Below the pieces are notes generated by a model. It did no database searches, was not told the origin of the DNA, and was given only the letters and a program-made list of their open reading frames with translations. DNA of 64,000 nt from an uncultured Verrucomicrobiales bacterium (GTDB lineage: Bacteria; Verrucomicrobiota; Verrucomicrobiia; Verrucomicrobiales; Akkermansiaceae): the NCBI GenBank assembly GCA_937934595.1, contig CALGZA010000006.1, forward strand, positions 1-64,000. The letters are read 5' to 3'. Positions 210 to 55,668 of the stretch are shown here, in pieces. A program made the translations under genes and the position numbers. The stretch's first letter is position 1; each line of letters starts with the position of its first letter.

Positions 210-3200
210 ATGATCAAAAAAAATTCTCACCCACCGCAAAAACAACTATTCCCACTTAACAAAATACTGATCATTTTAAGTATCTTTTGTGCAAATTGCA
301 GTGAAAAAAAAATAACACAACCTCACCCTACTTCATCAAACAATAAAGCCAAAACCACACAATTCTTCCTAACCAGCCAGGCAGAAAAACAGAGCCTCGT
401 AAAGCGTCAGTCAGCATTCAAAACCAATAAAAACAACTGGGAAAGTGAATTCTGGCATGAACAGACACATCAAGCCCTTAAGGAATTAGGCATAGCTCTT
501 CAGCTAAATCAAACTCCAGAAAAATGGATACATAAATCTCATCATTTAAAATCCACATCGAACACTTTCCGTCCTTCAAACCCCAAAATTATACACCAAT
601 ACCAAGGAGTAAACATTTCTCGCTCTAATCACCCCACCACATCCCTCTGCGGTAAACACCTCATAGACGCACTGTCAAATACTCTCAGAAACACCTCCCA
701 AGCTTGGTCACACTTCAAACAATACGGCATCAAAAAACTCAAAAAACAAAATAACATACAAACCCAAGTCTTCGCTAAATTTGGAGGAAACCGAAATAAA
801 CATAAATTCATCACTGAAATGCACTGGATCGTAAACTGGGAAATCCATAATAACGTGCCACGTATCACACAAATCAAATTACAAAAGTGGCAAGAAACCA
901 CTGCCCCAATTTCAAAAAAATGGTTCGTCGACCGCTCTACAGATACCATCGGCCACTCACCCTCATATCAAAAACAACTTACAAAAGGAGCCAACCACTG
1001 GGTCAAACTTATAACAGGTGTTTCTGGTCGCGGTTACCAAGGCATCGCTATCGGTGACCTCAACGGCGATGGATTCGATGACGTCTTCTGCCCACAACCA
1101 GAAGGACTAGCAAACTGCCTATTCTTAAGCCAAAAAGACGGCTCTCTATCGGACGAAGCATACAAACTAAAACTAGCATGGACCGACGAAACAGTCTCAG
1201 CACTTATCGTCGACTTTGACAATGACGGCCACCAAGACCTCGTCATTGGAACTGCCAATAATGTCGTTTTTCTCAAAAACCAAGGAGCCGCATCCAGCTT
1301 TCAAATAAAACAACAATTCAAACAGGAAGACTGTTCCTCATTAGCAGCAGCTGACTTTGATGGTGATGGACTCCTAGACCTCTTCGTCGGAAACTATCTA
1401 GGCGCCGAAAAATCACTATCGATCGTAAAACCAGATCAAGTCTATGACGCCGTCGATGGGAGCCCGAATCACCTATACAAAAACCTCGGTAACTTCTCAT
1501 TTATCGATGTTACTAAAGAAACTGGTATAGCAAAAGAATCTAGCAGATTAGCATTAGCTGCATCATGGGAAGACTTTGACGATGATGGTGACCCAGACCT
1601 ATACGTCGCTAATGACTTTGGTAAAAACTGCCTCTACGTGAACCATAACGGAAAATTCATAGAGCTCTCAAAATCACTCGGGGTAGATGACCCATCCACA
1701 GGAATGTCAGTCTCATGGGGAGATCCTAACAACGATGGAAAAATGGACCTCATCGTCGGAAATATGTTTTCCGCCGCAGGAAACAGAATAACCAACCAAC
1801 CCAAATTTACCAACAACCTACAAGCAGAGCTTAACAGCGAAAAAATCCGCTACCTAGCAAGAGGTAACTCACTACTAATAAACAAACCAAACCGATTTAA
1901 AGAAACAAGCGCATCCAGCGGTGTCATCAATTCTCAATGGACATGGAGCATGCTTTTTGCAGACATCAACAATAACGGACGTGAAGACATACTCGCTCTC
2001 AACGGCTACATCACAGGAAATAAAGATGACGACCTCTGAAGTTTCTACTGGAGGCAGGTCATGCCTGAAACAGGAAAAGTCAATCCAGCCAAAAACACTC
2101 TAGAAACACTCATCCGAGATGGCCTCTCTCTCAGCGGAAATGAAAAAAATGTTGTATTCCTTAACGTAAATAATGAATCCGGAAAGTTCGCAGACATCTC
2201 CCCTCTTACAGGATTCGATGACCCAGGAGATGGACGTGGACTAGCCATCACCGACTGGGACGGAGATGGTGACCTAGATGCTTGGATCAGCAACAGAACA
2301 GGCCCAACCATTCGTGTCTTAGAAAACAAACTCGGTGGCCGCTCCATAGCTTTTGAACTCACAGGTACACAACCACGGTGCAATAGAGATGCCATCGGAG
2401 CTAAAGTAGAGGTCAACGTTTCAGGAAACAAACTAATCCGTAGCCTCAGAGCAGGTGACGGCTACAAAAGCCAAAGCTCTAAACGACTTCACTTCGGACT
2501 AGGAACAACAGGACAAGTGAAATCCATTCTCGTAAAGTGGCCAGATGGATCCAATGAAACCTTTAAAAATGCCCACTCCTCAGGAATCTACAAACTCATA
2601 CAAGGCAGTGGCATCGCTATCAAAATAAATAGAAATAGAAAATGGAATAACAAAAAAACTGAACCAAAACCTCATCAGCACAATACATTGATTAAACTCC
2701 AACACCCACCAAATTTCCCAGAACTCAGACTAAATCACATCACAAAAAAAATAACAAAATCAACAAAAACAAAAACCCTCGTCCTTCTATGGCAACCAGA
2801 ATGTCCACTCTGCGAGAGACAACTACATGAAATAACAACTCACAAAAACAAAATCAATGATGCCAATATAAGAGTCCTAGCTCTCACCTCAGTAACAACC
2901 ACGTCCAAACTAGATACTATCAAAGCATTACTTAAAAAAACCAACTTCCCCTTCGAAGTAGCTACCATCCCTGAAACAAGCATCCGTGAAATAGAAACCC
3001 TCCACAGACATTTATTTTATCAGCCATACCACCTCACAGTACCAAACAGCTTCATCCTTAATAATACAAACCGCCTAACAGGGCTAGCACGAGGATTTAT
3101 ATCCATCCCCAAGCTACTAAAATCAATCTCTAACCAATCAAGTAATAATAGACCTCAACGCATCACTACACCCATCGGTCTTCGCCCCGCAGTTTTAATA

Positions 3201-3854
3201 AAAGAATACCTCCAGCAAGGACTACCCATCGCCGCAGAGCAAACCTTCAGAGCTGACACAAAACACCACACCATAGCTCCTCAAGCACCTGAAATCCTCA
3301 GAGCTATCGGAGAATCTCATCTAACACTTAGAAACTTCACTTCAGCAGAACGCCTACTAACAGAAGCTGCCAACTTATCACCAAAGAACCCCAGAGTCCT
3401 CAACAGCCTCGGAGCCGCACTAATGGGAAACAAAAATCCAAAAACAGCTATCTTAAAATGGCGTCAAGCTGCCAGACTATCGCCCAGCTACCCAGCACCA
3501 AGATTTAACTTAGGAAAAAACCTCCTCCGCATTGGAAACACCTCAGAAGCAATGTCATTCCTTACTGAGTTCCATAACCTAAATCCCAACACCCCAGAAG
3601 GCCACAAATACCTTGCTATCGGTTATATCAGACAAGCTGAATATAAAAAATCCATAACCCACCTCCAAGCACTCATCACATTACTTCCAGACAATGGGGA
3701 ACATTATTTAAACCTAGCTAAAGCATACCTAAAAATCACTAATAAAAATAAAGCCATCCAGATCATAAAACAAGGCATCTCCAGAAAAAAAATGCCCCAC
3801 CATCAACACTTCAAACTGAAACAGCTTCTTCAAAGACTTAAAACCAGAGAATAA
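210..3854 (+). CDS. FG-GAP/VCBS repeat + ASPIC/UnbV + thioredoxin-like + TPR protein; candidate selenoprotein with in-frame UGA at 2037-2039
   Basis: ORFs 210-2039 and 2061-3854 are in the same frame, separated by one TGA plus 7 sense codons. The join reads ...NGYITGNKDDDL-U-SFYWRQVMPETG.... FG-GAP motifs (DFDGDGLLDLFVGN) precede it; ASPIC/UnbV-like RAGDGYKSQSSKRLHFGLG, a CPLC thioredoxin-like motif and TPRs follow it. Confidence 0.8.
2041..2071 (+). promoter_or_regulatory. SECIS-like hairpin downstream of UGA 2037-2039
   Basis: GTTTC(2041-2045)/GAAAC(2067-2071) lower stem, 6-nt 5' bulge TACTGG, AGGCA(2052-2056)/TGCCT(2062-2066) upper stem, loop GGUCA. The loop starts 17 nt after the UGA and resembles the AGGUCU loop of E. 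coli fdhF. Confidence 0.75.
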
Positions 3855-15465: not shown

Positions 15466-16509
15466 ATGACAGATCATATCAAACTCACCTCACTCGTCTC
15501 CTGCGGCGGCTGAGCTTCTAAGCTAGATCCAGAATCACTCTCGCAAGTTCTGCGAGACCTACCACAGTCCAATGACCCTAACCTACTCGTCGGCTCAGCC
15601 ACAGCAGATGACGCAGGTGTCTACAAATTATCCCAAAACACAGCACTCGTCCAAACCCTAGATTTCTTCACACCCATTTGTGATGACCCATACCTGTTCG
15701 GCCAAATCGCAGCAGCTAACTCACTCTCTGACGTCTACGCAATGGGAGGAAGACCCATCACCGCCATGGCTATCGCAGGTATGCCAGACTCCATCCTAAG
15801 CACTGATGACATTAAAGCCATCTTCAAAGGCGGCGCCGATATGGTCAAACATGCCAATTGCTCACTCGTCGGAGGTCACACCATCAAAAACCCAGAACCT
15901 ATCTACGGCCTCTCAGTCACAGGCCTCGTCCACCCAGACAGATTCACCGCTAACGCACACGCCAAAATTGGCGACTCCCTCATCCTCACCAAACCACTCG
16001 GAACAGGAATCATCTCAACCGCTCTCAAACAAAACAAAGCCAACTCATCACTCAATGACCTAGCTGTCACCTCCATGATTACACTGAACACCCCAGGCGC
16101 AGACCTTGCAGAGCAAAACCTCATCAACGCATGCACTGACGTCACAGGCTTCGGACTCCTCGGTCACCTAAAAGAAATCTGCTCCAGCTCAAACGTCTCA
16201 GCTCACCTAAACTGCTCAGACATCCCACCCATCTCACCTCAGGTCCTATCACTCATCGCCAATGAAATCGTCCCAGGAGGCACCAAGAAAAACCTCTCCA
16301 CAGCACTCCCCCACATAACAACAAATAACATATCAATCGTTACCCAGCTCCTTCTCGCAGACGCACAAACCTCCGGAGGCCTACTCATCTCAGTACCAAA
16401 AGAAAACAAACAAAAGGTCATCGAAATCCTCCACTCGCACAACTCCCTCTGCGCAGTCGAAATAGGTCACATCACACCAAAAGAAAATAAATACATCATT
16501 CTAAACTAA
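15466..16509 (+). CDS. selD: Selenide, water dikinase; selenocysteine-containing (UGA 15511-15513)
   Basis: From ATG 15466: MTDHIKLTSLVSCGG-U-ASKLDPESLSQVLRDL...DFFTPICDDPYLFGQIAAANSLSDVYAMGGRPITAMAIAG. The ORF track starts downstream at 15742 only because of the UGA. Confidence 0.95.
15539..15557 (+). promoter_or_regulatory. SECIS-like hairpin of selD
   Basis: TCTCGCA(15539-15545)-AGUUC-TGCGAGA(15551-15557), perfect 7-bp stem with GU in the loop; loop starts 32 nt after the UGA. Confidence 0.7.
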
Positions 16510-47720: not shown

Positions 47721-49097
47721 ATGCCTAAAGTATTTATCAAAACCTACGGATGACAAATGAACGAACGTGATTCTGAGCAGGTTGCTCGGATGTTCTCTGA
47801 AGGTGGATACACCATCACAAAAGACGAGTTTGACGCAGACGCCATACTCGTAAACACATGCTCAGTAAGAGACCAAGCTGAACAAAAAGCACTCGGCAAA
47901 ATGGGCCACATGGGAAAACACAGAATCCGTAAACCACACGTCGTATACGGATTCATGGGCTGCATGGCTCAGTCTCGCGGAGAAGAACTATTCCAAAACG
48001 TCCCACACCTAGACGTCGTCGTAGGAACCCAAAAATACCACAAAGTCTTCGAATACGTAGACAACATCCTCACACAGAGACTAGAACGTAGAATGGATGA
48101 AGTACAACTCTCCATGATCGGTGAAAACGTCTGCGACACAGAAGAAGAAACAGACTCACAAAACACCATCAAAGACCACATCGAGGAAAACATAAATCCA
48201 TCCACATTCGTCTCCATCATGCAAGGATGTAACATGAAATGCTCATACTGCATCGTCCCAGACACCAGAGGCCGTGAAAGAGGCAGACCCATAACAAGCA
48301 TCATAGAAGAAATCAAAAAACTAACCGACAAAGGAGTCGTAGAAGTCACACTACTCGGCCAAATCGTCAACCTTTACGGAAGAACAGAATTCCCCAAAAT
48401 AGACGGAAAATCACCATTCGTACAGCTCCTAGAAGCCGTCCACGATATAGACGCCATCAAACGCATCCGCTTCACATCCCCACACCCCATCGGATACCGT
48501 GATGACCTCATAAATGCATTCACCTACCTCCCCAAGCTCTGCTCACACATCCACTTCCCCATGCAAAGCGGTAGCGACAGGATCCTCAAAAAAATGAGAA
48601 GACCCTACAAAAACCAAAAATTTATCGAAATCTGCGAGAAAATGAAAGCCGCTCGCAAAGACCTCGCCATCACTACTGACGTCATCGTCGGATACCCAGG
48701 TGAAACCGAAGAAGACTACCTCATGACCAAAGAAACCATGAAAAACATCGGCTTCGACAACGCATTCATCTTCAGATACTCAAAACGCAAAAACACACCA
48801 GCAGCAGAAATGCATGACCAAATCGCGGACTCCATCAAAGAAGAACGTAACCAAGACCTCCTCGCCATGGTCAACCAAATAGCCATGGAAAAAAACCAAC
48901 TCCAAGTCGGCACCACACAAGAAGTCCTCTGCACCGGCGGATCAAAAAAAGACCCAAACAAAATGACCAGCAGAACCAGCCAAAACAAAATCGTCATTTT
49001 CGACGGCAAAGCCGAACGCATGTCAGGACAAATCCTCCCCATCAAAATAGAAAAATCATCCGGATTCACACTCTTCGGAACCCCCGTAATCCACTAG
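47721..49097 (+). CDS. miaB: tRNA-2-methylthio-N6-dimethylallyladenosine synthase MiaB; candidate selenoprotein (UGA 47751-47753)
   Basis: From ATG 47721: MPKVFIKTYG-U-QMNERDSEQVARMFSEGGYTIT.... Radical SAM CNMKCSYCIVPDTRGRERGRP; other cluster Cys (NTCSVRDQAEQKALG; GFMGCMAQSRG) retained. The ORF track starts at 47757 just after the UGA. Confidence 0.95.
47772..47790 (+). promoter_or_regulatory. SECIS-like hairpin of miaB
   Basis: TCTGAGC(47772-47778)-AGGUU-GCTCGGA(47784-47790), with a further GAAC/GTTC helix (47763-47766/47792-47795). Loop starts 25 nt after the UGA. Confidence 0.7.
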
Positions 49098-54294: not shown

Positions 54295-55668
54295 ATGTCA
54301 CTAAGAGAGCTACCATCAGTCGAAAAACTCGCCAACTCACTCAGCAAAGTCACACCACTCCCCAAACCACTCATCATCGGCTTCATCCGCAGAGAACTAG
54401 ACAACTGGCGTCAGCAAATCATCAAAGGAGATGATCCAAAACGCGCAGATATTGAAACCTCCATCACAGAAAAAATCAACCACTTCTCAGCATCCAGACT
54501 ACAACCAGTCATCAACGGCACAGGAGTCCTCATCCACACAAACCTTGGCAGATCACCACTCGGACAAACCGCAGCATCCGCTCTACAAAAGATCGCCACA
54601 GGATACTCAAACCTAGAATTTAACCTACCAGAAGGCACCAGAGGAAAACGCGCAGAATACCTTGAAACCGCTCTCGCATGCCTTCTAGACGCCCCATCAG
54701 CCACCGTCGTTAACAACTGCGCAGCCGCACTCGTCATCATCCTCCGCCACCTCGCCAATGGCAAAAAAAACGAAGTCATCGTCTCTCGCGGAGAACTAGT
54801 CGAAATAGGCGGCGGATTCAGAATCCCTGAAATCCTAGAAACATCAGGAGCAAAACTCGTTGAAGTCGGCGCCACTAACAAAACACACATCTCAGACTAC
54901 GAAAAAGCCATCACCCCAAACACAGCACTCATACTCAAAGTCCACAGATCTAACTTCTTCATCGGAGGATTCACCGCAGAACCACATATCTCAGAGCTAT
55001 CACAACTCGCTCACAAAAACGGATTCCCACTCGTAGAAGACATCGGATCAGGTGCCATCATGAACACAGACGAACTCGCACCCATCGACCACGAGCCCAC
55101 ACCACAAGCTGCCCTCAGAAACGGCATCGACCTCGTCTGCTTCTCAGGTGACAAGCTCCTCGGAGGTCCACAGTCAGGAATCATCGCCGGAAATACTGAC
55201 CTCATAGCAGGCATCAAAAAAGAACCATTCTACCGTGCCATACGCTGCGATAAACTCATCCTAACAGTCCTCCAAGAAAGTATCGACGAATACCTTCGCA
55301 CCCAAGCAGATCCAAGCCAAACAGACATCCCCACACTCAAAAACCTCGCAGAACCCACAGAAAACCTAAAACTCCGCGCACAAAACATCATCAAAAAAAT
55401 ATCCAAAACCTCAAAAGCTGACATCTCCATCATCTCATCCACCGCCACCACCGGAGGAGGCACCATGCCCACATCACAAATCCCATCCATCGCCATCGCC
55501 ATCAAACCAACAGGCATCTCTCTTAACAAACTCTCTCGCACACTCCGAACCTCCACACCAGCCATCGTAGGATACACAGAACAAGACAAACTCTGCCTCG
55601 ACCTTCGCACCATCTTCCCATGGCAAGACAAAGACATCACCAATAAACTCACAGAAACACTCAACTAA
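54295..55668 (+). CDS. selA: L-seryl-tRNA(Sec) selenium transferase
   Basis: MSLRELPSVEKLANSLS, VINGTGVLIHTNLGRSPLG, YSNLEFNLPEGTRGKR, FSGDKLLGGPQSGIIAG (PLP Lys). Confidence 0.96.
   Translation: MSLRELPSVEKLANSLSKVTPLPKPLIIGFIRRELDNWRQQIIKGDDPKRADIETSITEKINHFSASRLQPVINGTGVLIHTNLGRSPLGQTAASALQKIATGYSNLEFNLPEGTRGKRAEYLETALACLLDAPSATVVNNCAAALVIILRHLANGKKNEVIVSRGELVEIGGGFRIPEILETSGAKLVEVGATNKTHISDYEKAITPNTALILKVHRSNFFIGGFTAEPHISELSQLAHKNGFPLVEDIGSGAIMNTDELAPIDHEPTPQAALRNGIDLVCFSGDKLLGGPQSGIIAGNTDLIAGIKKEPFYRAIRCDKLILTVLQESIDEYLRTQADPSQTDIPTLKNLAEPTENLKLRAQNIIKKISKTSKADISIISSTATTGGGTMPTSQIPSIAIAIKPTGISLNKLSRTLRTSTPAIVGYTEQDKLCLDLRTIFPWQDKDITNKLTETLN

Follow-up and report, generated by a model that had tools for sequence, protein, structure and literature searches.

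The miaB gene at positions 47721-49097 of the window, a 64,000-nucleotide stretch of an Akkermansiaceae genome, very probably encodes a genuine selenocysteine (Sec)-containing MiaB, in which Sec stands in place of the first cysteine of the auxiliary cluster. The gene lies on the forward strand, as do all window features described here. Our reading draws on the interchange of TGA and cysteine codons on the gene tree, the co-occurrence of the TGA form with selA and selB, a hairpin that is constrained in TGA genes only, and relics of that hairpin in TGT genes. Together, these data strongly support the first-pass annotation of the window, which had proposed a Sec codon at this position of MiaB.

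Reading frame and identity of the window's miaB

The gene begins with ATG CCT AAA GTA TTT ATC AAA ACC TAC GGA TGA CAA ATG AAC (47721-47762), confirming the sequence, coordinates and frame first proposed for it. It contains a single internal TGA at codon 11 (47751-47753), and from codon 12 the frame is open to the TAG at 49095-49097. The predicted product has 458 amino acids with U at residue 11 and the N terminus MPKVFIKTYG-U-QMNERDSEQVARMF. A standard gene finder reports only the 446-amino acid ORF that starts at the internal ATG (47757-49097) and is devoid of the first cluster ligand.

Pfam recognizes the three domains UPF0004 (PF00919, residues 3-102), radical SAM (PF04055, residues 164-336), and TRAM (PF01938, residues 394-456). 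Scored with a cysteine put at residue 11, the protein reaches 442.9 bits against the NCBIfam MiaB model TIGR01574, the cut-off of which is 355.3. The second and third auxiliary-cluster cysteines are Cys-47 in NTCS (47859-47861) and Cys-81 in GCMA (47961-47963), so that the arrangement U11-X35-C47-X33-C81 has the exact spacing of the auxiliary-cluster motif CysX35-36CysX32-33Cys (PMC5352715), with a TGA (Sec) codon instead of Cys for the first ligand. The radical SAM motif CxxxCxxC, comprising Cys-170, Cys-174, and Cys-177 (48228-48251), is intact in the translated sequence. Both by sequence and by fold, the nearest solved structures are PDB entries 7mjv-7mjz, which we take to be the MiaB of Bacteroides uniformis; the AlphaFold model, of moderate quality (pLDDT 77.5, partly low in the radical SAM core), served for the fold match alone.

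Searching the 95.9%-complete genome of the window with the MiaB protein revealed no second miaB and no other methylthiotransferase. An intact second copy, named at the outset as an observation that would speak against a Sec-MiaB, was thus not found. The genome does contain miaA, whose product makes i6A. We also considered the GQIVN motif of the protein (GQNVN in B. uniformis) as an oddity linked to Sec and rejected it; the cysteine forms have GQIVN too, and the motif is therefore unrelated to Sec.

Sec and Cys codons among the Akkermansiaceae

We compared codon 11 of miaB in 195 genomes of the family, using genome sets compiled by hand from tables and confirming the TGA positions on extracted sequences. 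The codon is TGA in 59 genomes and TGC or TGT, or at least not TGA, in 127; the N terminus was unreadable in the remaining nine. The first-pass annotation had suggested looking for a conserved TGA versus TGC/TGT among relatives, and this is what emerged. When the genes were extracted with a pattern that required the flanking motif and left the codon free, the distinct sequences had TGA (57), TGC (73), or TGT (11) there and nothing else. TGA-type genes are spread over seven genera of the family sample and occur in two isolates, Rubritalea marina DSM 17716 and R. profundi SAORIC-165. A strict pattern for TGA-MiaB, applied to a sample of 388 genomes of the phylum (39 of them from the family), matched the window's genome alone. 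Many marine Verrucomicrobia (Akkermansiaceae, for example Rubritalea) appear to carry Sec-MiaB.

A sequencing error or a pseudogene might come to mind for a window taken from a draft genome of 123 contigs. Such a reading is refuted by the comparative data, with 57 distinct TGA sequences, the two isolates included, whose frames are otherwise intact and conserved; we regard its probability as negligible.

Alternatively, the TGA could be a true stop, with translation starting at the ATG at 47757 and yielding a MiaB that lacks the first cluster cysteine and has an altered function or none. In favor of this, the gene caller lists the ORF from 47757, which is long. However, the nine codons that precede the TGA (codons 2-10) are conserved as protein, with a pN/pS of 0.022 in TGA genes indicating strong purifying selection, which would hardly be expected if translation ended at codon 11. 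Moreover, the position alternates between TGA and Cys codons only, TGA is confined to genomes bearing selA or selB, the hairpin described below is constrained in TGA genes only, and no other methylthiotransferase was found in the genome. We therefore consider a true stop very unlikely.

To follow the exchange of the two residues, we placed them on a quick maximum-likelihood tree from which the first 40 columns were left out. The tree requires a minimum of 12 Sec/Cys changes, and well-supported branches force no fewer than six of them. With the direction of change left free, a single gain at the root of the larger clade, with repeated losses thereafter, would account for the pattern. In genus g16, very short branches separate TGA from TGT genes. 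Four TGT genes of g16 and one of g12 keep a relic of the hairpin, GATTCCGAGCAGGTTGCCCGGATG. These five genes (L188, L189, L190, L191, and L017) encode Cys through TGT, retain the SECIS-like hairpin and lie in genomes with selA and selB; they are apparently recent Sec-to-Cys reversions. Since several Sec-decoding relatives do well with a Cys MiaB, Sec is not indispensable. At the level of sequence, the comparison shows that miaB is kept as a frame in which Sec and Cys are interchangeable in Sec-decoding bacteria.

Separately, a contig titled Lysobacterales (L091) carries a Verrucomicrobia-type miaB (66% identity) and represents a mislabelled or contaminated bin.

SECIS-like hairpin and selenocysteine machinery

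The 7-bp hairpin with an AGGUU loop that the first-pass annotation had noticed is real. It has the sequence UCUGAGC-AGGUU-GCUCGGA, spans 47772-47790 within the coding sequence (codons 18-24) and starts 18 nt after the UGA. RNAfold, proposed earlier as a check, folds it with 8 bp, including an extra A-U pair, at -10.3 kcal/mol and a z score of about -1.9 versus shuffled sequences, a modest signal that is mildly above the shuffles for a single sequence. As in a SECIS element, the hairpin lies just 3' of the UGA and carries a conserved G in its apical loop; it is a putative SelB-binding site. Rfam gave no SECIS match at the gathering threshold, and only chance matches appeared when E values up to 10 were admitted.

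The constraint on this segment was evident from the alignment of related genes. In TGA genes, codons 18-24 have a synonymous change of 0.231 (mean 0.806), the lowest of 452 seven-codon windows, whereas the matching codons 17-23 of TGC genes are ordinary, with a value of 0.69 and rank 270 of 442. All 56 TGA genes compared have GAG at codon 19 and CAG at codon 20, whereas TGC genes are mixed at the same two codons (GAG 36, GAA 34; CAG 42, CAA 29). A mean of 6.68 of the seven hairpin pairs can form in TGA sequences, compared with 4.00 of seven in ordinary Cys sequences. Of the 57 distinct TGA sequences, 52 have the loop AGGTT, and pair 3 varies among T-A, C-G, and T-G; mispairs also occur, with one pair being A-C in 11 of the 57 sequences and another C-A in six. 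A TGA at one codon in 59 of 195 genomes, combined with a hairpin constraint in TGA genes only, is far beyond chance.

The window also encodes selA and selD, as had been reported for it. The Sec synthase gene selA (54295-55668) matches TIGR00474 with 510.3 bits. The selenophosphate synthetase gene selD (15466-16509), which the gene finder gives only as an ORF from 15742, has an in-frame TGA of its own at 15511-15513 (SCGG-U-ASKL), followed by the SECIS-like hairpin UCUCGCA-AGUUC-UGCGAGA (15539-15557; 7 bp, 5-nt loop), which provides a comparison for the miaB hairpin within the same window. The TGA is present in every full-length selD gene (19 of 19) detected in the window's genome and in related Sec-decoding genomes. 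Absence of selB and selC from the genome had been named as evidence that would count against Sec; both are present, as selB at G000:C45:4081-5985 and a tRNA-Sec gene with a UCA anticodon at G000:C43:26674-26766. With selA, selB, selD, and tRNA-Sec, the Sec pathway is complete in the window's genome.

Every one of the 59 genomes with a TGA-miaB carries selA and/or selB: selA was found in 54, and the other five all have selB. Single absences of either gene are expected because draft genomes are incomplete. Neither gene was found in 115 of the 127 genomes with a Cys-miaB, and both were found in the other 12. The association is significant by Fisher's test at p = 7e-37, a value uncorrected for shared descent.

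Another reading would have the UGA decoded as Cys or Trp through a code change or suppression, as the residue found in relatives is Cys. This is highly improbable, slightly less likely in our view than a true stop. The genome has a full Sec pathway, and ordinary genes of the window end in TGA; five of six such genes have another stop within the following 3-23 codons, while the sixth is a candidate Sec gene in its own right.

Two genomes with Cys miaB, G006 and G028, are missing selA, selB, and Sec-type selD together, in comparison with selA-positive relatives. Within the family, the whole Sec trait therefore seems to be gained and lost as a unit. Formate dehydrogenase gave no match above the cut-off in the window's genome, and the weaker matches contain no TGA. 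In R. profundi, a formate-dehydrogenase-like gene (G066:C1:2926563-2928812) is split over several frames with a TGA inside one piece, which we attribute to a decayed gene or a frameshift.

Besides miaB and selD, the window holds a third UGA gene family, which is much duplicated. Its member at 210-3854 has 1214 codons, FG-GAP, ASPIC-UnbV, and TPR regions, and a weak redoxin match. A single TGA at 2037-2039 lies in the context DDL-U-SFYWRQV and is accompanied by a SECIS-like hairpin, GGCAGGUCAUGCC. The same TGA occurs in dozens of homologues, with the family motif DL-U-SF[YF]WRQV, and single genomes have many paralogues (about a dozen in G037 alone). The family is missing from a table of 119 selenoprotein families (PMC13188914) and is apparently a second undescribed one.

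Proposed mechanism and relation to known systems

In the mechanism that we propose, UGA codon 11 would be read as Sec by SelA, SelB, SelD, and tRNA-Sec, with the hairpin 18 nt downstream directing the insertion, as the comparative evidence suggests. By homology to the solved MiaB and RimO enzymes, Sec-11 is predicted to ligate the auxiliary [4Fe-4S] cluster, which would then be held by one selenolate (Sec-11) and two thiolates (Cys-47 and Cys-81). In the MiaB family, a sulfide of the cluster receives a methyl group from one SAM, and a second SAM makes a radical that opens C2 of i6A37 (PMC8584467, PMC10002905, PMC10702137). According to recent work, the auxiliary cluster itself is the sulfur donor and is consumed (PMC8584467, PMC10002905, PMC10702137); it must therefore be rebuilt. 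We expect the Sec enzyme to keep this ordinary chemistry: the first SAM would methylate a sulfide on the auxiliary cluster, the 5'-deoxyadenosyl radical would come from the second, and C2 of i6A37 would receive the methylthio group. Sec-MiaB should thus convert i6A37 to ms2i6A37 in tRNA.

The first-pass annotation had also raised the idea of new chemistry, in which methylselenium instead of a methylthio group is passed to the tRNA. Selenium would indeed sit at the cluster, but in the mechanisms now accepted the atom that is moved is a cluster sulfide or cluster-bound sulfide and no protein ligand (PMC8584467, PMC10002905), and giving up the selenium of Sec would destroy the protein. Because Sec is a protein ligand and not the transferred atom, methylseleno transfer is very improbable, about on a par with a true stop.

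For a Sec-MiaB that retains methylthio chemistry, the question is what selenium contributes. A passage in PMC11431864 describes the selenolate as more acidic than a thiolate and as reversibly oxidised. In an aerobic cell, where the cluster is consumed as sulfur donor and rebuilt after each turnover, a selenolate could preserve the reactivity of the ligands and allow them to be oxidised reversibly. Rubritalea species are aerobic and marine. Our favored hypothesis, put forward tentatively and with somewhat less than even confidence, is that the likeliest gain from selenium is a site kept ready for reloading and protected in aerobic marine cells. A changed redox behaviour of the auxiliary cluster through Sec is possible. 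With similar reserve, we suggest that a sacrificial [4Fe-4S] cluster with a selenolate ligand may confer an advantage, be it oxygen tolerance, faster rebuilding, or an altered potential, and may tie tRNA methylthiolation to the selenium supply in these marine bacteria.

The main value of an inserted Sec could instead be regulatory, with UGA read-through coupling the level of MiaB, and hence of ms2i6A, to the selenium supply. In E. coli, recoding of UGA is incomplete and depends on selenium (PMC4513850), and loss of ms2i6A changes decoding and the regulation of amino acid operons (PMC5372745). Our data would also allow for tRNA modification to be switched by selenium. However, the UGA is always at the cluster ligand and is exchanged with Cys only, which points to the chemistry of the residue; we thus consider a mainly regulatory role unlikely, though less so than the other alternatives weighed here.

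Sec-MiaB is absent from the catalogues that we searched; the enzyme itself is known, and its selenoprotein form is new. Neither MiaB nor any methylthiotransferase appears in the main text and tables of a 2026 inventory that covers 119 families and subfamilies of prokaryotic selenoproteins (PMC13188914), or in the text of the 2025 deep-Sep paper (PMC12013277). No seleno-MiaB model is among the 25 NCBIfam models listed, and our search of openly accessible, published literature found nothing that ties MiaB to a Sec residue. With it, the selenoproteome gains an enzyme of tRNA modification. Sulfur-inserting radical SAM enzymes spend their auxiliary cluster, which has to be kept up and rebuilt in vivo. 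Here, evolution appears to have exchanged sulfur for selenium at one cluster ligand, with about a dozen Sec/Cys switches between close relatives, and natural matched pairs, such as the TGA and TGT genes of one genus, could be used to probe the effect of a selenolate on a [4Fe-4S] cluster. On a practical level, ordinary gene callers miss the MiaB start in these bacteria, cultured Rubritalea included.

To our knowledge, none of the other Fe-S families with a predicted Sec is a radical SAM enzyme that spends its cluster as a sulfur donor. These families comprise HdrA, Fe-S oxidoreductase-like proteins, ferredoxin-thioredoxin reductase, and CopZ-type 2Fe-2S proteins (PMC13188914). The TIGR04167 family and TrsS (NF045646), which the 2026 catalogue lists (PMC13188914), are radical SAM proteins with Sec as well, but they are other families and no methylthiotransferases. 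Bacterial SelD with Sec shares the window, the machinery, and a similar hairpin with miaB but is a long-known selenoprotein family. The methylthiotransferases RimO and MtaB have the same architecture and auxiliary-cluster motif as the window's MiaB, and no Sec form of either was seen among the matches examined; the window's protein, however, scores below the cut-offs of the NCBIfam models for RimO, MtaB, and the archaeal-type methylthiotransferase. Its closest counterpart is MiaB itself (TIGR01574; B. uniformis 7mjv-7mjz), with which it shares the UPF0004, radical SAM, and TRAM domains and all other cluster cysteines, and from which it differs in having a Sec codon in place of the first cysteine of the auxiliary cluster and a SECIS-like hairpin within the gene.
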